NCBI GenBank assembly: GCA_016872115.1
Contig: VHBC01000003.1
Location: forward strand, 1 to 64,000
Origin: Sphingomonadales bacterium
GTDB lineage: Bacteria > Bacteroidota > Bacteroidia > Flavobacteriales_D > Crocinitomicaceae
Length of the DNA stretch: 64,000 nucleotides
Reading direction: 5' to 3'
The translations under genes were made by a program, and so were the position numbers. This document shows positions 30,292-50,882 of the stretch, one piece after another; within the stretch, counting starts at the first letter, position 1; each line of letters starts with the position of its first letter. Below the pieces are notes generated by a model. That model did no database searches. It worked only from the letters and a program-made list of their open reading frames with translations, and had not been told where the DNA came from.

Positions 30292-31290
30292 TTAAGCGAG
30301 TTTTTCTGCGAGCAATTTGATTTCTACTGCCGGAGCAATTTTATCGTAAATGATATTGTAAACTGCTTGTAAAATTGGCATATCTACATTGAATTTCTTA
30401 TTGATTTCATACAGACTTTTGGTGGCATAATATCCTTCGGCGATCATGTTCATTTCGAGTTGTGCACTTTTGACAGAATACCCTTTGCCAATCATAAAAC
30501 CAAAGGTGCGGTTGCGCGAAAAATTAGAATAAGCAGTCACAAGAAGATCACCGAGGTAGGCGCTCGTTTTGGTATCGCGGTGCACCGGATGCAAAACGTC
30601 GATGAATCTTTCAATTTCTTGAATAGCATTTGAAACTAAAACCGCTTGAAAATTATCCCCGTAGCCCAAACCATGACAAATCCCAACTGCCAGAGCATAA
30701 ACGTTTTTAAGGACTGCCGAAAACTCAGTGCCAAAAAGGTCATCACTGGTCGTGGTTTTGATGTAGCGGCAGCTAAGGGCATTGGCCATTTGTTGGGCTA
30801 ATGTGGCTTCTGGGCAAGCAAGTGTCAAATAAGACAGGCGTTCCATGGCTACTTCTTCTGCATGACATGGGCCAGAAATGATACCTATTTTTTCATAGGG
30901 AATGCCAAAGCTTTTATGGATAAATCTGGCCGGAATGGCATTGTAGGCAGGAATGATTCCTTTTACTGCAGAAAAGACTACTTTATTTGCAAAATGAGCA
31001 GGCTCTATACCTTCAAATGCCTCTTCTAAAAATGCAGCTGGCGTGGCAATGATGACCCAATCCACTTTTGCAAGTGTAGCTTTTAAGTCGTTGCTTAGAA
31101 CGATTTGTTGGTTGTCAAAAGCAACTGACTGGAGGTATTTGGGATTATGACCAAAGTTTTGAATGTGCGCAATGGCCTCTTGGCTGCGCATCCACCAATG
31201 TACCTGCTTGGTGTTATTGCACAAGATTTTCACCAAAGCGGTAGCCCAACTTCCGCCGCCAAAGACAGCGATTTTTTGCGGTGTTTCCAT
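30292..31290 (-). CDS. gpsA: Glycerol-3-phosphate dehydrogenase [NAD(P)+]
   Basis: The 332-residue enzyme reduces dihydroxyacetone phosphate for phospholipid synthesis. It has the dinucleotide-binding IAVFGGGSWATALVKIL, VVFSAVKGIIP, GPCHAEEVA and FSAVLKNVYALAVGICHGLGYGDN, all GpsA signatures. The frame is open nine codons upstream to 31317, but the ATG at 31290 gives the usual N terminus. TACCTTTG, a full match to the -7 box consensus, ends four bases before this ATG. lysC follows in the same operon. Confidence 0.96.
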   Translation of the reverse strand: METPQKIAVFGGGSWATALVKILCNNTKQVHWWMRSQEAIAHIQNFGHNPKYLQSVAFDNQQIVLSNDLKATLAKVDWVIIATPAAFLEEAFEGIEPAHFANKVVFSAVKGIIPAYNAIPARFIHKSFGIPYEKIGIISGPCHAEEVAMERLSYLTLACPEATLAQQMANALSCRYIKTTTSDDLFGTEFSAVLKNVYALAVGICHGLGYGDNFQAVLVSNAIQEIERFIDVLHPVHRDTKTSAYLGDLLVTAYSNFSRNRTFGFMIGKGYSVKSAQLEMNMIAEGYYATKSLYEINKKFNVDMPILQAVYNIIYDKIAPAVEIKLLAEKLA

Positions 31291-31329
31291 TTGGCAAAGG
31301 TAAACAATCTGTTGCAACTACTTTGTTAC

Positions 31330-31337
31330 TAATTTTG
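31330..31337 (+). promoter_or_regulatory. Promoter -7 box (TAATTTTG) of the AIM24-family gene
   Basis: TAATTTTG matches TAnnTTTG and ends 15 bases before the ATG at 31353. A TTG at 31312-31314 could be the upstream element, though its 15-base spacing is short. Confidence 0.4.
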
Positions 31338-31352
31338 TAAGAAAAACATAAC

Positions 31353-32141
31353 ATGCGTAGCAACCACGAAATCGACTACTTCATCAAAGGAGAAGAAATG
31401 CAGCTCATCGAAATTGAGCTCGATCCACAAGAAACTGCAATCGCTGAGGCCGGCGCATTTATGTACATGGATCAAGCGATCGCCATGCAAACCATTTTTG
31501 GCGATGGCTCTGCTCAAACAGGATTTATGGGCAAATTATTTAGTGCCGGAAAACGCCTTCTGACCGGCGAAAGTTTGTTCATGACCGCCTTTACCAATGA
31601 AGGTTTCGGCAAGGCACGTGTCGCATTTGCCTCGCCATATCCCGGTAAAATTGTTCCGTTCGATCTCTTACAATTCAACGGCAAAATCATTTGTCAGAAA
31701 GATGCTTTTCTCTGTGCGGCAAAAGGGGTGAGTGTAGGCATCGAATTTCAGCGCAAGCTCGGCACAGGTCTTTTCGGTGGTGAAGGTTTTATCATGCAAA
31801 AGCTTGAGGGCGATGGCTTTGCTTTTTGTCATGCCGGCGGATACATTACCGAACGCACCTTGCAACCCGGCGAAGTTTTACGTGTTGATACAGGCTGTAT
31901 TGTGGCCTACACCCAAGATATCGACTACGATATCCAATTTGTTGGTGGCATCAAGAATACTATTTTTGGCGGCGAAGGTTTATTCTTTGCCACGCTGAAA
32001 GGTCCAGGAAAAGTGTGGCTGCAAAGTTTGCCAATTTCTAGATTGGCAGCTCGAATTTTAGCTTACAGCACAACAACGCGCAAGGAGGAGGGCAGTATTT
32101 TGGGTGGCCTTGGTAATTTGCTCGACGGCGATGGACGTTAA
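31353..32141 (+). CDS. TIGR00266/AIM24 family protein
   Basis: The 262-residue product matches the AIM24/TIGR00266 pattern: [18 protein letters not shown] and [10 protein letters not shown] at the N terminus, [21 protein letters not shown] in the middle, and [17 protein letters not shown] and [20 protein letters not shown] near the end. The fold is a double beta-jelly roll related to tryptophan RNA-binding attenuation proteins. The biological role is unknown in bacteria. It is a single gene between divergent gpsA and a convergent cvfB-like gene, which starts right after its stop. Confidence 0.92.
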
Positions 32142-44948: not shown

Positions 44949-45419
44949 TCAAGCAGTAAGTAAGCTTCTTGCCACTCTAAGGGCTTCTTCAATGTGCCCA
45001 ACAGGGTTGGTTTGAGAATTAAAAATACCGGCAATTTTTCCGTTGAGCCCCACGACATACGTGACTCTTCCCGGAATTAAGCCAAACAAATTTCCAGGTA
45101 CGCCAAATAATTGGCGTACCTTTTTTTGTGTATCGGCGAGCAATGGATAGGGAAGACCATGCTTTTGGCCGAAGGCTAGATGAGACTTACTCCCGTCCGA
45201 TGAAATGCCAAATACTTCGCAACCGAGAGAAACAAAATCAGCGTAGGCATCTCTAAAAGCACAGGCTTCTTTGGTACACCCCGGTGTATCGTCCTTGGGG
45301 TAAAAGAATAGAACCAATATTTTTTTACTGATAAAATGTTGGATATCAATCAAGCTTCCTTGATGATCAGGAAGACTAAATGCAGGGCAGTCGTCACCTA
45401 CTTGTAGTTCTTTACTCAT
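44949..45419 (-). CDS. bcp: Thioredoxin-dependent thiol peroxidase (Bcp/PrxQ type)
   Basis: The 156-residue peroxiredoxin has FYPKDDTPGCTKEACAFRDAY, with the peroxidatic Cys in TPGCT and the resolving Cys five residues later, as in Bcp/PrxQ proteins. It reduces hydrogen peroxide and organic peroxides using thioredoxin. Its start overlaps the photolyase stop by four bases (ATGA), so it is the last gene of the carotenoid/photolyase operon. That fits a response to light-driven oxidative stress. Confidence 0.95.
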   Translation of the reverse strand: MSKELQVGDDCPAFSLPDHQGSLIDIQHFISKKILVLFFYPKDDTPGCTKEACAFRDAYADFVSLGCEVFGISSDGSKSHLAFGQKHGLPYPLLADTQKKVRQLFGVPGNLFGLIPGRVTYVVGLNGKIAGIFNSQTNPVGHIEEALRVARSLLTA

Positions 45420-46714
45420 GCTTGTAATGCTGTTTTGAAACGATTCAAGACGCGTTCGCGTGCAAATTTATGTTCTATAATGGGTACAGGGTAGGCCGGA
45501 GTTCCAAATTCGGGAACCCATTTTTTGATGTATTTGTATTGCGGGTCAAATTTCTTCTGCTGGGCCTCGGGGTTGAATACTCTAAAATAGGGTGCGGCGT
45601 CGCAGCCACAGCCTGCTGCCCATTGCCAGCCCCCAATGTTGCTGGCCAATTCAAAATCGAGTAGTTTTTCTGCAAAATAACGCTCTCCCCAGCGCCAATC
45701 GATTAATAGGTGTTTGGTGAGAAAACTTGCCACAACCATGCGCACGCGGTTGTGCATAAAACCGGTCGCATTGAGTTCTCTCATGCCGGCGTCCACTAAC
45801 GGATACCCTGTTTTACCTTCGCACCAGGCTTTGAAGTGAGCTTCATTGGTTTCCCAAACAATACGGTCATATTGGGGTTTGAAAGCATGGTCAACAGTCT
45901 GAGGAAAATGAAATAAAATCATTTGATAGAAGTCGCGCCAAATGAGCTCATTGAGGAATTTTTCATTGAGTTGTTGGGCGCTCAGTGCCAATTGCCTGAT
46001 AGAGATGGTTCCAAAGCGTAAATGTAAGCTCAGACGAGAGGTGCCGAGCACTGAAGGAATATCGCGGTTCAAATGGTAATTGGCGATAATTTTTTGAGGT
46101 GTAAGACTTGGTGGAAAATCTTGTGCATTTTGATTTTCAAAGCCCATTTCTTTCAATGAAATCAGTTGTTGGGTAGGTAATTTTGCCAAATGAGCAGCGT
46201 ATTTTGTTGTCGGATACGCTTTGAACTGATAAGGGGAAATTTTGGCCTTCCATTTGCGCGAAAAGGGTGTGTAGATGGTGTAAGGTTTACCATCATCTTT
46301 AACGACCTCATTTTTTTCAAAAATGACTTGGTCTTTGGCACCAATGAATTCAATGTGACTTTTTTGGAGTTCGTCAAATAGAAACTGATCTCGGGAAATA
46401 GCTCTTGGCTCGTAATCTCTGTTGGTGTAGACCCTTGAAGCCTTGTGCTGCTGCACTAATTTGGGAATTTCTATTTTGGCGTCGCCGTAAACAACATGAA
46501 GGTCCGAACCATATTGTTGGTATTCTTTTTTAAGACTTGCTATCTCTTGGTGTATGAATAGAACACGTTGGTCGTTTTGCGGTAGGTGTTCTAGAATTGT
46601 TTGATCAAAAACAAAAACAGGTATAACAAGCTCGTTGTTTTTGAGTGCTTTATATAAACCAGCATTGTCTTCTATTCGAAGATCGCGGCGGTGCCAAAAA
46701 AGCGCAGTACTCAT
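45416..46714 (-). CDS. phrB: Deoxyribodipyrimidine photolyase
   Basis: The 432-residue FAD enzyme repairs UV dimers using light. It starts STALFWHRRDLRIEDNAGLYKAL and has the FAD-binding C-terminal block GGWQWAAGCGCDAAPYFRVFNP and RMVVASFLTKHLLIDWRWGERYF. The frame is open 31 codons upstream to 46807, inside the pterin synthase gene, but the ATG at 46714 gives the normal N terminus and a four-base overlap with that gene. A CPD photolyase of class I is the best guess; a cryptochrome-like role cannot be excluded. Confidence 0.93.
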   Translation of the reverse strand: MSTALFWHRRDLRIEDNAGLYKALKNNELVIPVFVFDQTILEHLPQNDQRVLFIHQEIASLKKEYQQYGSDLHVVYGDAKIEIPKLVQQHKASRVYTNRDYEPRAISRDQFLFDELQKSHIEFIGAKDQVIFEKNEVVKDDGKPYTIYTPFSRKWKAKISPYQFKAYPTTKYAAHLAKLPTQQLISLKEMGFENQNAQDFPPSLTPQKIIANYHLNRDIPSVLGTSRLSLHLRFGTISIRQLALSAQQLNEKFLNELIWRDFYQMILFHFPQTVDHAFKPQYDRIVWETNEAHFKAWCEGKTGYPLVDAGMRELNATGFMHNRVRMVVASFLTKHLLIDWRWGERYFAEKLLDFELASNIGGWQWAAGCGCDAAPYFRVFNPEAQQKKFDPQYKYIKKWVPEFGTPAYPVPIIEHKFARERVLNRFKTALQA

Positions 46715-47115
46715 TTGCCGTCGTATTCGATAATGTTGTTTTGCGTTTCCCAAAGCTTGACGCTTAGGCCATATTTTGAATCTAGTTTTTCGCGCAATAA
46801 GTTCCAAATAACCACTGCAATATTTTCTGCCGTAGGATTCAAGTTGGCAAATTCGGTGCAGTCTAGGTTGAGGTTGCGGTGATCGAAGCGATCCTGAACT
46901 TCCCTGCCGATCAGATCTTTGACCAACTTGAGGTCAATCAGGTAACCTGTTTCTGGATCAATTTGGCCATCAATCCAAACCTCTAGGGTGTAGTTGTGGC
47001 CATGGTAGTTGGGGTTATTGCATTTGCCAAAAACGGCGTTGTTTTGTTCGTCGGACCAATCTGGTCGGTAAAGTCGATGTGCCGCATTAAATGTGGCGCG
47101 TCTACACACTCTCAT
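46711..47115 (-). CDS. queD: 6-pyruvoyl-tetrahydropterin / 6-carboxytetrahydropterin synthase
   Basis: The 134-residue T-fold enzyme has the zinc-binding His residues in TFNAAHRL and NYHGHNYTLEV, the active-site Cys in FGKCNNPN, and the terminal Glu in LWETQNNIIEY. This pattern fits QueD (queuosine pathway) as well as PTPS-like enzymes. It overlaps photolyase by four bases and idi by 14 bases inside a carotenoid/photolyase operon, so a role in making a pterin or related cofactor for a light-responsive process is possible. The symbol is therefore tentative. Confidence 0.85.
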   Translation of the reverse strand: MRVCRRATFNAAHRLYRPDWSDEQNNAVFGKCNNPNYHGHNYTLEVWIDGQIDPETGYLIDLKLVKDLIGREVQDRFDHRNLNLDCTEFANLNPTAENIAVVIWNLLREKLDSKYGLSVKLWETQNNIIEYDGK

Positions 47116-47638
47116 ATGCTGCTTTTGTTAAGGCCTCTACGTTTTGGTTTAAAAGTATTTTAAACCAAGCTGTGTAAGCATGTGGGTAATTTTCGAGGTC
47201 TTGCAATAAATCCGATAGGCTAATCCATTTGTAGGCTTCTACTTCATCTGTATTGATTTTTGGGTCTTCATCGGCGTAGGCAAAAACCACGTGGTCTAGT
47301 TCGTGTTCTGTAAGACCCTGATCGAGTTTGGCTTTATATATAAAATGAAACGCATATTGCATTTTAGCGCTCATACCCATTTCTTCTTGTAAGCGGCGTT
47401 CGGCTGCATTTAAAACACTTTCCTCTGGTCTTGGATGACTGCAACAAGCGTTGGTCCAAAGCAGTGGTGAGTGATACTTATGCGCAGCACGTTGTTGTAA
47501 TAAAAGTTCACCTTTATTGTTGAAAAGAATCACAGAAAACGCCCGATGCAATAAACCCAGGCGATGTGCTTCCATCTTTTCGAGCTGACCGATTTCGCGG
47601 TCGTCTTCATTAACTAATACAACGTACTCTTCTTGCAT
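47102..47638 (-). CDS. idi: Isopentenyl-diphosphate delta-isomerase, type 1
   Basis: The 178-residue Nudix-fold enzyme has the active-site Cys in LLWTNACCSHPRPEE, the Nudix-like stretch NAAERRLQEEMG, and the second active-site Glu region LTEHELDHVVFAY. It interconverts IPP and DMAPP and so feeds the carotenoid pathway encoded just upstream. It overlaps crtB by one base and queD by 14 bases. Confidence 0.95.
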   Translation of the reverse strand: MQEEYVVLVNEDDREIGQLEKMEAHRLGLLHRAFSVILFNNKGELLLQQRAAHKYHSPLLWTNACCSHPRPEESVLNAAERRLQEEMGMSAKMQYAFHFIYKAKLDQGLTEHELDHVVFAYADEDPKINTDEVEAYKWISLSDLLQDLENYPHAYTAWFKILLNQNVEALTKAAYESV

Positions 47639-48474
47639 TACAATAAATTGAGGTTATGGCGAACGTATGAAGTGAGCAATATGCGCATTTTGCGGTAATT
47701 TGGTATGCGAATACGCTCGTTGAGTACCGATTCTGCAGGTGTTTGCTTGATTTTTTTGAAGAGTTTAAAGTAGTATTTGTAGGCCATATAGACGCCAAAA
47801 CGAGCTGTTTTTGGGAGCATCAGGATGCCTTCGTAACCTTTTTGGAAATCAATGGCAATATCTATTTCAATTTCTTTTTTCAGCTCAGCATTGAATTCGG
47901 TTAAATTAATTCCTGGGAAGTAGGTTCGGCCAAGTTCTTGATAGTCTGCTTTGAGATCTCTGAGAAAATTTATTTTCTGAAAAGCTGCACCAAGTTTCAT
48001 GGCGTAGGGCTTGAGTTTGTCGTATTCAGCTTGGTTGCCATCAACAAAAACCTTGAGGCACATCAGGCCAACGACCTCAGCAGACCCCAAAATATAGGTC
48101 TCGTATTTCCCTTGGTCATAGGTTTGTTTTTGTAGGTCCATTTCCATCGAGTCCAAGAAAGTATCGATAAGTTCTTGAGGAATTTGGTATTTATTAACCG
48201 CCCATTGAAAACTATTTAGAATCGGATTGAGTGAAATTCCAGCGGCAATCGCTTCGTAGGTTTGAACTTTAAAATCTGCGAGTAGTTTTTCTTTATCATA
48301 GCCATGGAAAGTATCGACGATTTCGTCGGCAAAACGCACAAAACCATAAATGGCATATATTGGTTTTTGCAGTTCTTTGTGCAAAAAGCTGATGCCTAAC
48401 GAAAAGGAAGTCGAGTACCTTTTGGTGGTGAGCTCGCTCATTTCTTGGCTGATGTTGTCAAATAATGCTTTCAT
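47638..48474 (-). CDS. crtB: Phytoene synthase
   Basis: The 278-residue squalene/phytoene synthase joins two geranylgeranyl diphosphates. The two Asp-rich motifs are present: RFADEIVDTFHG (about residues 48-59) and INFLRDLKADYQELGRTYFP (about 168-187). Other family blocks are TKRYSTSFSLGI near the N terminus and YILGSAEVVGLMC. It lies nine bases after crtI and overlaps idi by one base. Confidence 0.96.
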   Translation of the reverse strand: MKALFDNISQEMSELTTKRYSTSFSLGISFLHKELQKPIYAIYGFVRFADEIVDTFHGYDKEKLLADFKVQTYEAIAAGISLNPILNSFQWAVNKYQIPQELIDTFLDSMEMDLQKQTYDQGKYETYILGSAEVVGLMCLKVFVDGNQAEYDKLKPYAMKLGAAFQKINFLRDLKADYQELGRTYFPGINLTEFNAELKKEIEIDIAIDFQKGYEGILMLPKTARFGVYMAYKYYFKLFKKIKQTPAESVLNERIRIPNYRKMRILLTSYVRHNLNLL

Positions 48475-48483
48475 AGTTTGGGT

Positions 48484-49953
48484 TTAGTGATGCGTGGTTA
48501 TGATGTGCTTGGCAACTACCTCTCCTGAAACAATAGAAGGAGGGACGCCTGGGCCAGGTACAGTTAATTGGCCGGTATAGTAAAGGTTTTTGATTTTTTT
48601 ATGTTTCATTCTGGGCTTAAGAACAGCCGTTTGACGCAATGTATTGGCCAAGCCATAAGCGTTTCCTTTGAATGCGTTGTAATCATTTTTGAAGTCTGAA
48701 ACACAGAAACTACGCTTGTAAACGATGTTGTCTTTGATGTCGTTCCCGGTGAGGTCTTTTAGTCGCTGAACCAATATATCAAAATACTTCTCTCTGGTGG
48801 CTTCGTCGTCCTTGAGGTCGGGTGCTAGTGGGATCAAGAAGAAAAGGTTTTCTGAACCTTCTGGTGCTACGGTTGGATCCGTTAGTGAAGGCACACTCAT
48901 GTAAAACAAGGGCTTTTCAGGCCAACTCGGGTCTTTGTAGATGGTTTTGCCGTGTTCTTCTAGCGATTCATCAAAGAAGAGGTTATGATGCTCGAGGTTT
49001 TCTAGTTTTTTATTCACGCCGACGTAAAACAACAAGCTAGAAGGCGCCATTGTGCGTTTGTCCCAGTAGGAATCGGAATAGTTAGCGTTTGCTTGTAGTA
49101 AGTTTTGATCGGTATGAGCGTAGTCAGCTCCTGATATAACGATGTCTGCTGCATGAAAGGTGCCATTAACAATGGTACCTGTGGCTTTTCCGTTTTCAAT
49201 GACAATACGTTCTACTTTGGAGGCTTTGTGAATGGAAACACCTTGTTCTTGTGCAATGCGTGCAAACGCTTTGATAAACTCGTGCATGCCGTTCATTGGG
49301 TACCATGTGCCGAGTTGGATGTCTGCATAATTCATTAGCGAATAAAGAGCGGGCGTTTCATTGGGCATGGCTCCCAAGAACAAAACTGGAAATTCTAAAA
49401 GAGAAAGAATTTTAGGATGTTTGAAATATTTGCGAATAAAAGTCGAAAAGGAAGAAAACAAATGCATTTTGAATAGCCCACCAAGCACCCTTGAATCGAT
49501 GAATTCGCTGAGTTTTAAACTTGGTTTGTAAACAAGATCTTCCATACCTACTTTGTATTTGTAGGCGGCATCTTTTAAAAAAGCCTGTAATTGTTTAGCA
49601 CTACCCGGTTCAACAGACTCAAACCAAGCTTCAAGTGCTTGCATGTCAGCAGGAACATTCGTGTAAGCGCGATCTGGCCAATAGACACGATACGAAGGAT
49701 CTAGTCTTTTTAGTTCGTAAAAATCTGAAGTGGTGTAACCGAATTGCTTGTAAAATTTTTCGAAGACGTCCGGCATCCAATACCAAGAGGGGCCCATGTC
49801 GAAAACAAATCCTTGGGTTTCAAATTGCCTCGCCCTGCCACCTATGCTGTCGTTCTTTTCAAAAATTTGAACGTTGTAACCAGCTTTGGCTAAAAAGGAT
49901 GCGGTAGATAAGCTCGAAATTCCCGAGCCAATAATGTGTACTTTTTTTGTCAT
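48484..49953 (-). CDS. crtI: Phytoene desaturase (CrtI type)
   Basis: The 489-residue flavoenzyme has the N-terminal FAD-binding motif VHIIGSGISSLSTASFLAKAG, followed by FEKNDSIGGRARQFE, and the C-terminal LYYTGQLTVPGPGVPPSIVSG. It introduces double bonds into phytoene to give lycopene or neurosporene. Start and length are typical. The ECF sigma factor gene ends three bases upstream and crtB follows. No lycopene cyclase or hydroxylase is in the window, so the final pigment cannot be named. Confidence 0.96.
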   Translation of the reverse strand: MTKKVHIIGSGISSLSTASFLAKAGYNVQIFEKNDSIGGRARQFETQGFVFDMGPSWYWMPDVFEKFYKQFGYTTSDFYELKRLDPSYRVYWPDRAYTNVPADMQALEAWFESVEPGSAKQLQAFLKDAAYKYKVGMEDLVYKPSLKLSEFIDSRVLGGLFKMHLFSSFSTFIRKYFKHPKILSLLEFPVLFLGAMPNETPALYSLMNYADIQLGTWYPMNGMHEFIKAFARIAQEQGVSIHKASKVERIVIENGKATGTIVNGTFHAADIVISGADYAHTDQNLLQANANYSDSYWDKRTMAPSSLLFYVGVNKKLENLEHHNLFFDESLEEHGKTIYKDPSWPEKPLFYMSVPSLTDPTVAPEGSENLFFLIPLAPDLKDDEATREKYFDILVQRLKDLTGNDIKDNIVYKRSFCVSDFKNDYNAFKGNAYGLANTLRQTAVLKPRMKHKKIKNLYYTGQLTVPGPGVPPSIVSGEVVAKHIITTHH

Positions 49954-49956
49954 AAA

Positions 49957-50469
49957 TTAATTTGCCGAAAAAGCGAATTCCGGGAGTGCTTCCATCAGTT
50001 TTTTACGTGCGATGAAAATCCGGCTTTTCACAGTTCCGATTGGAATACCTAGTTTGTCAGCGATCTCTTTGTATTTAAAGCCTTGAAAATGCATTTCAAA
50101 AGGCGTTTGATACTCCTCGCCTAATAAATTGATTTGTCTGTTGATGTCGTTTACACCAATCTTCTCGATTGCGCTGTCTTCGTGGCTGTGGATGTTTCCG
50201 ACCAAAAATACTTCTTTGCTGTGGTCGAAGATGGCACCCGATTTTACTCTTCTGCGGTACTGATTGATGAACAAGTTACGCATAATTGTGAACACCCAAG
50301 CTTTAAAATTCGTTTGTGGCGTATAATAATTGCGATACGTAATGGCTTTGAGCATGGTTTCTTGCGTCAAATCCCTTGCGTCTTCTCGGTTTCTAGTGAA
50401 CGAAAGTGCAAAAGATTGCAAGTTATTTTCTAGACCAATTAATGCTTCATTAAATTCGATTGTTGACAT
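49957..50469 (-). CDS. ECF-type RNA polymerase sigma factor
   Basis: The 170-residue protein has sigma region 2 (NREDARDLTQETMLKAI, then NFKAWVFTIMRNLFINQYRRR) and region 4 (MHFQGFKYKEIADKLGIPIGTVKSRIFIARKKLMEAL in outline). It lies directly upstream of crtI in the same direction, as in many Bacteroidota carotenoid clusters, and so probably controls or is co-controlled with them. No anti-sigma gene is adjacent. A region of repeated TGTTTAAC half-sites precedes it. Confidence 0.95.
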   Translation of the reverse strand: MSTIEFNEALIGLENNLQSFALSFTRNREDARDLTQETMLKAITYRNYYTPQTNFKAWVFTIMRNLFINQYRRRVKSGAIFDHSKEVFLVGNIHSHEDSAIEKIGVNDINRQINLLGEEYQTPFEMHFQGFKYKEIADKLGIPIGTVKSRIFIARKKLMEALPEFAFSAN

Positions 50470-50479
50470 AGCGAGTTAT

Positions 50480-50548
50480 TTTGTTTAACATTTGTGGGAT
50501 AAAGTTAAACATTATTTGTTTAACAAAAACAAAAAAAAATTAAACAAA
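50480..50548. promoter_or_regulatory. Repeated TGTTTAAC/GTTAAACA half-sites upstream of the carotenoid operon
   Basis: TGTTTAACA occurs at 50482-50490 and 50517-50525; GTTAAACA at 50504-50511 and TTAAACAA at 50540-50547. The first pair forms an inverted repeat with 8-base arms and a 14-base spacer, and the second repeats the arrangement 35 bases further upstream. They lie 13-80 bases upstream of the ECF sigma start. This is the layout of a repressor binding region, possibly for a MerR-family light regulator (CarH/LitR), but no regulator gene is nearby. Confidence 0.55.
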
Positions 50549-50882
50549 ACAATATTTTTTTTAAATGCCGAGGTCAATTTTCGCTCTTTTCCTAGTATTC
50601 AACAACGTTTGAAGACGTTTGAAAATTTTAAAATTTTGTTGATACTTGTGGGAAACTGTTGAAAAAATTTACACTTTGGTTTTTGTTGAGACCGTAAAAG
50701 GTCCTAAAAACTTGAAAAAAGTAGGGATATTAAATCACCTTGGTATTTATGGGATTTAGTATATGACCTCGATGTAATATTTGTAGTGATTCTTTAAGGC
50801 CTTGTAACATGACATGATGGTGCAGGTAAAACAATAAACAGTCTTCATTAAATAACCAAACCTCATTTTTATAAATGATGAT
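50549..50882. other. Intergenic region with no gene found
   Basis: This AT-rich stretch between the carotenoid operon and tdh holds no ORF with coding character. I see one tandem 10-bp repeat (ACGTTTGAAG then ACGTTTGAAA at 50605-50624) and a weak hairpin with GACC/GGTC arms near 50693-50711. No convincing RNA gene or origin is present. Confidence 0.5.

Follow-up and report, generated by a model that had tools for sequence, protein, structure and literature searches.

Within the window, the whole 64,000-nucleotide stretch of DNA that was analysed, the minus strand harbours a gene cluster in the order ECF-crtI-crtB-idi-PTPS-photolyase-PrxQ, with an array of short inverted repeats directly in front of it (Table 1). 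The Pfam and NCBIfam assignments agree with a preliminary description of this DNA, which had read the cluster as an operon for carotenoids, a photolyase and a peroxiredoxin. About 4 bases are shared between the PTPS and photolyase genes, and the position of a pterin synthesis gene next to the photolyase gene suggests that it may supply the photolyase antenna cofactor.

Table 1. Genes and upstream elements of the carotenoid-photolyase locus, in window coordinates
Feature	Position	Strand	Basis
Peroxiredoxin, AhpC-TSA, PrxQ-like	44949..45419	-	Pfam and NCBIfam
DNA photolyase/cryptochrome family	45416..46714	-	Pfam; start is an internal ATG of the listed ORF 45416-46807
6-Pyruvoyl tetrahydropterin synthase family (PTPS)	46711..47115	-	Pfam
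Isopentenyl-diphosphate isomerase (idi), NUDIX type	47102..47638	-	Pfam and NCBIfam
Squalene/phytoene synthase, CrtB-like	47638..48474	-	Pfam
Phytoene desaturase CrtI	48484..49953	-	NCBIfam CrtID, above cut-off
ECF-type RNA polymerase sigma factor, first operon gene	49957..50469	-	Pfam Sigma70_r2, Sigma70_r4_2
Promoter-proximal operator dyad (putative), TTGTTTAA-N16-TTAAACAt, 1 mismatch	50481..50512	-	Sequence; kept in relatives
Putative -7 promoter element TAACTTTA (TAnnTTTR)	50500..50507	-	Sequence; overlaps a half-site of the proximal dyad
Distal operator dyad (putative), TTGTTTAA-N16-TTAAACAA, perfect	50516..50547	-	Sequence; kept in relatives

A motif scan of the window located copies of TGTTTAAC at 50482-50489 (+), 50504-50511 (-) and 50517-50524 (+), with a fourth half-site, TTAAACAA, at 50540-50547. 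These positions bear out the earlier reading of four half-sites in two inverted pairs about 35 bases apart, and the measured distance of 12-78 bp upstream of the ECF start codon (ATG at 50469, minus strand) compares with the 13-80 bases given before. With one more base included at either side, the two pairs resolve as a single repeated element, TTGTTTAA-N16-TTAAACAa, of identical geometry and with starts 35 bp apart. A lone half-site is not rare, four being found in the window where 3.95 are expected. The two-dyad arrangement, on the other hand, is not due to chance: one dyad with at most one mismatch arose in 6 of 4000 dinucleotide shuffles of positions 50470-50882, and two dyads in none of the 4000. 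Across the 2.22-Mb genome, the ECF array is the single occurrence of the exact dyad TGTTTAAC-N12..16-GTTAAACA, so the concern that the motif might be frequent by chance did not hold. When three mismatches were allowed, the motif gave fewer matches than its reversed control in two genome scans (15 vs 52 and 49 vs 82). Because it is no commoner than the control at this level, weak genome-wide matches are by themselves meaningless, and the three-mismatch matches were rejected as a regulon list. Three closer matches were likewise taken as chance. That at contig 7:81937 has one mismatch and is located in or at an ORF to which no Pfam family was assigned, and those at C5:83748 and C26:15132 have two mismatches and are both inside ORFs.

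To follow the array in relatives we used ECF orthologues from 88 of 150 same-family genomes, together with 80 loci from named contigs, mostly labelled as Crocinitomicaceae, Flavobacteriales or Cryomorphaceae MAGs. In 132 of the 134 distinct 150-bp ECF upstream regions, the corresponding position is taken by a dyad with two mismatches or fewer, against none of the 134 for the reversed motif, and the absence from relatives that would have spoken against the array was not found. Two dyads are present in 110 of the 134 regions, with a start-to-start distance of 34-35 bp in 96 of these and of 63-65 bp in 12, and the spacer is nearly fixed, at 16 in 211 pairs and 17 in 21, with few pairs at neighbouring values. 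Of the two regions that deviate, L178 (genome G078) has a degraded array and L197 has a dyad slightly farther upstream. An array that stands directly before an ECF gene and is conserved with it could in principle be the promoter of that gene, its repeats being read by the operon's own sigma factor in autoregulation. Sigma-factor promoters, however, are not two-fold symmetric, whereas the dyad motif is; dyads also stand before crtI, crtB, rhodopsin, fasciclin and carH genes that have no ECF neighbour, and in genomes without an ECF match at the cut-off used. Since dyads precede so many genes without an ECF gene, self-recognition by the ECF factor was rejected, and we regard it as highly improbable.

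The preliminary description had placed a light-related MerR-type regulator at a distance from the operon and had proposed a search for MerR, CarH or LitR genes. Two MerR_1 genes were found in the genome, on contigs 20 and 9, neither of them near the operon. The contig 20 gene, at 30736-31602, encodes a protein of 289 aa with MerR_1, B12-binding_2 and B12-binding domains, all above the Pfam gathering score and in the domain order of CarH/LitR. Its closest solved structures in a phmmer search are 3whp and 5c8d (E about 4e-18; 4.5e-18 for 5c8d), which we take to be T. thermophilus CarH. Against the NCBIfam CarH equivalog the protein scores 102.2 bits where the cut-off is 400, and because it falls so far below we call it CarH-like, not CarH. 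Among 119 distinct homologues, our protein included, the residues expected to contact the cofactor are almost invariant: in the adenosyl-contacting W-x9-EH motif, W and E are kept in 119 and H in 118, and the lower axial His is kept in 119. In solved CarH the Trp is followed by a His that has not been conserved: our protein has L at this position and its relatives mostly Q or L. The gene itself and its linkage to the dyad (below) support the idea of a distant regulator, and the regulator of the array is most likely the CarH-like protein encoded on another contig.

Gene neighbourhoods offer a first view of this linkage. In 32 of 58 further ECF loci the gene immediately upstream of ECF, on the same strand and across a gap of 98-1179 bp, is carH-like, and the dyad persists in these loci even where ECF identity has fallen to 38-44%. 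The 30 closest loci, our own genus included, have the array as well, yet their carH-like gene is either 17 kb or more distant or on a different contig; in our own genome it is not beside the carotenoid genes. A dyad with at most two mismatches also precedes carH itself in 33 of 119 distinct carH upstream regions, many at exactly -36, compared to 0 of 119 for the reversed control. The carH upstream regions of our own genus contain no dyad and show no sign of autoregulation.

The distribution of dyad and regulator across genomes gives a second view, the regulator being counted as absent where nothing matched at a threshold of E 1e-25 in the family and 1e-20 in the phylum. Among 296 Bacteroidota genomes, a perfect dyad is present in 37 of 62 that have the regulator, 25 being without one, and in 0 of 234 that lack it (Fisher p 8e-31). 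Fifteen of the 75 sites listed, which come from 33 of the 37 dyad genomes, lie within 300 bp of a carH-like gene. For family genomes at least 90% complete, the perfect dyad is found in 69 of 98 with the regulator gene and 0 of 16 without. Within genera holding both kinds the figures are 70 of 91 and 2 of 19 (0 of 200000 permutations), in a tally compiled by hand and with five regulator-negative family genomes assigned by their absence from the match list. In addition, all 36 family genomes with a rhodopsin match have the regulator, vs 125 of 150 overall.

Lastly, two genomes that keep the ECF gene and have no CarH-like match provide a natural-loss comparison. In G078 the array is degraded, whereas G043 retains a near-dyad (1 mismatch, spacer 17), so that one of the two, G078, clearly favours the link to the regulator and G043 does not. 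Both genomes are near-complete (loci L178 and L175, respectively) and may represent regulator losses of different age. A perfect dyad is kept in G021, G028 and G101, which are 59-82% complete and have no regulator match, and the array is kept in G037, G082, G100 and G140 though their CarH-like copy is just 35-44% identical.

The position of the array relative to the promoter bears on how such a protein might act. Of 95 relatives, 82 have the sequence TAnnTTTR, represented here by TAACTTTA, at an offset of +5 relative to the proximal dyad. It resembles the sigma-A -7 consensus of Bacteroidota, TAnnTTTG at -12 to -5, as given in PMC9723704. The array thus appears to overlap core promoter elements, in so far as the consensus defines the promoter, with transcription predicted to start near 50495. 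With this putative -7 element inside the proximal dyad, the array would cover the promoter, as expected of a repressor site. MerR proteins can also activate, and the classical MerR activator site is a single short palindrome within a promoter with an over-long spacer. The dyads might serve activation, by the CarH-like protein or by a different unlinked regulator, for example the product of the second MerR_1 gene (contig 9), or they might act in RNA, where inverted repeats could pair. We consider this improbable. A proximal dyad over the -7 element and the predicted start is in the position of a repressor, autoregulatory sites stand before carH-like genes, the dyads follow the CarH-like gene across genomes, and no effect in the transcript can come from a dyad that lies upstream of the -7 element.

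We then considered which genes the dyads precede. The loci had been chosen for holding a dyad, an ECF gene or a carH gene, and the cluster sizes that follow therefore describe these loci and are not frequencies. Only 5 of the 179 distinct perfect dyads in them fall inside an ORF, as judged by a simple ORF caller, and most lie 0-120 bp before a start codon. The first genes behind the dyads, with Pfam names that rest on cluster representatives, form clusters of ECF (42), fasciclin (27), crtI (14), PTPS (11), carH (8), an unnamed family of 153-162 aa (8), rhodopsin (7), TetR (7), flavin reductase (6), DUF2911 (5), photolyase (5), crtB (4) and glutathione peroxidase (4); SOUL, beta-carotene dioxygenase, GTP cyclohydrolase I and MeaB genes are found in the same position. 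The rhodopsins include proteorhodopsins, and retinal synthesis genes also stand behind dyads. The earlier question whether other light-related genes share the motif is answered by the crt, photolyase and rhodopsin genes, which carry dyads. In our own genome, a fasciclin gene on contig 1 has a one-mismatch dyad whose end is one base before its ATG, and on contig 8 a rhodopsin gene is preceded by a two-mismatch dyad at a distance of about 85 bp. As weak matches these two are worth little, but they are kept in relatives. For rhodopsin, 30 loci were collected and 25 parsed, one of which has almost no upstream DNA; a dyad with at most two mismatches is present in 17 of the 25 upstream regions and in 10 of 12 from our own genus, compared to 0 of 25 for the reversed control.

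The same survey raises another candidate for the DNA-binding protein. Seven genes behind dyads form one cluster whose representative is a TetR-type repressor (TetR_C_23), and such a protein could bind the dyads, with the CarH-like gene as merely another target. TetR_C_23 is found, however, in just 44 of 150 family genomes, and in 0 of 19 searched genomes of our own genus, our own genome included, though the array is present upstream of ECF. This refutes TetR_C_23 as the binder in our genus, unless another TetR subfamily takes over, and we hold this explanation to be extremely improbable.

Secreted fasciclin-domain proteins with a sorting tail, in their cluster of 27, are the second commonest first gene (L392:1534-3032, which is our own contig 1; L245, L246 and L379). 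The eight proteins of 153-162 aa lie directly behind perfect dyads (L298:1024-1491, L239:1544-2032, L306 and L322), some of them divergent to a DUF2911 protein, and two representatives gave no Pfam or NCBIfam match. A gene for a MeaB-type GTPase, a B12-related partner of methylmalonyl-CoA mutase, diverges from carH over a shared perfect dyad (L365:2097-3137 and L369:900-1940). Genomes of genus g19 (L360/G075, L237/G107, L238/G131 and L355/G083) carry as many as eight perfect dyads each, some of them arranged in tandem pairs at a distance of about 42-44 bp, which suggests a larger regulon.

Compared to the preliminary description, the analysis adds that the half-sites form one repeated N16 dyad, that a putative -7 element lies inside the array and that the candidate regulon extends across many Bacteroidota genomes. 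Judged from sequence comparisons, the array is very probably the operator of an unlinked repressor, the CarH-like, cobalamin-binding MerR protein of contig 20 (289 aa). We postulate that the protein, when bound to AdoCbl in the dark, would cover both dyads, and with them the -7 element and the transcription start, and keep the operon off. In the light the cobalamin cofactor would be broken and the protein released, upon which the housekeeping polymerase could transcribe ECF-crtI-crtB-idi-PTPS-photolyase-PrxQ. The ECF sigma factor may add a second layer of activation, as in the light-induced carotenoid systems of other phyla, where such a factor adds gain. Dark binding, light release and the presumed need for AdoCbl are modelled on CarH as outlined in PMC9304148 and PMC8156234.

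More broadly, we think it likely that many Bacteroidota have in common one B12-photoreceptor regulon, in which a repressor of the CarH-like type, together with a new class of operator, TTGTTTAA-N16-TTAAACAA, would control carotenoids, photolyases, pterin and folate enzymes (PTPS, GTP cyclohydrolase I), retinal synthesis, proteorhodopsin, peroxide defence and secreted fasciclins. The open-access literature, with subscription papers mostly outside its scope, yielded no description of a CarH operator or regulon for Bacteroidota, and a search in it for the motif as text returned unrelated papers only. The repeat cluster becomes a testable switch, with a protein, a DNA site and target genes named for light control. 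Proteorhodopsin genes of several genera would come under a predicted B12-dependent light sensor, which offers a way for light to raise their expression. If true, vitamin B12 itself would be the light regulator of proteorhodopsin in these Bacteroidota, and their use of light would be tied to B12 supply.

Among known systems, LitR/LitS of Streptomyces coelicolor combines a LitR/CarH-type regulator with an ECF sigma factor at a light-induced carotenoid cluster; the pairing of regulator and ECF factor is alike, and the phylum differs. Chryseobacterium lacus belongs to Bacteroidota as our genome does and has light-induced crt genes, but appears to use a different route, its authors having found no car or lit genes (PMC7064467). 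Our system shares with CarH of T. thermophilus and B. megaterium a MerR regulator that binds cobalamin, carotenoid target genes and an operator overlapping a sigma-A type promoter, as far as these are set out in the account of PMC9304148, and the half-site TTAAACAA contains TAAACA, which fits the CarH core TnnACA given there. The operators of those two species, in the same account, consist of 3-4 tandem 11-bp direct repeats on one strand, whereas ours is built of two inverted dyads that each have an N16 spacer and are set at a distance of 34-35 bp. Tandem 11-bp repeats of the form nnnnTnnACAn were found twice in a row in 5 of 133 ECF upstream regions (shuffle mean 1.45) and three times in 0 of 133, and with the tandem layout absent from these regions we rejected membership of the array in the direct-repeat class. 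The nearest layout is that of the CarA operator of M. xanthus, a likeness of layout only, as drawn from PMC9304148: the CarA/CarH operator PB/Pcrt spans about 55 bp, contains two inverted repeats to which two CarA dimers bind cooperatively, and overlaps the promoter (also PMC8156234). Unlike our genome, M. xanthus has linked carA-carH genes, the antirepressor CarS and a B12-independent CarA, as PMC9304148 and PMC8156234 describe. The array is thus predicted to work like a CarH/CarA operator from outside the direct-repeat class, with CarH-type recognition units set in an inverted N16 layout rather than in tandem repeats.
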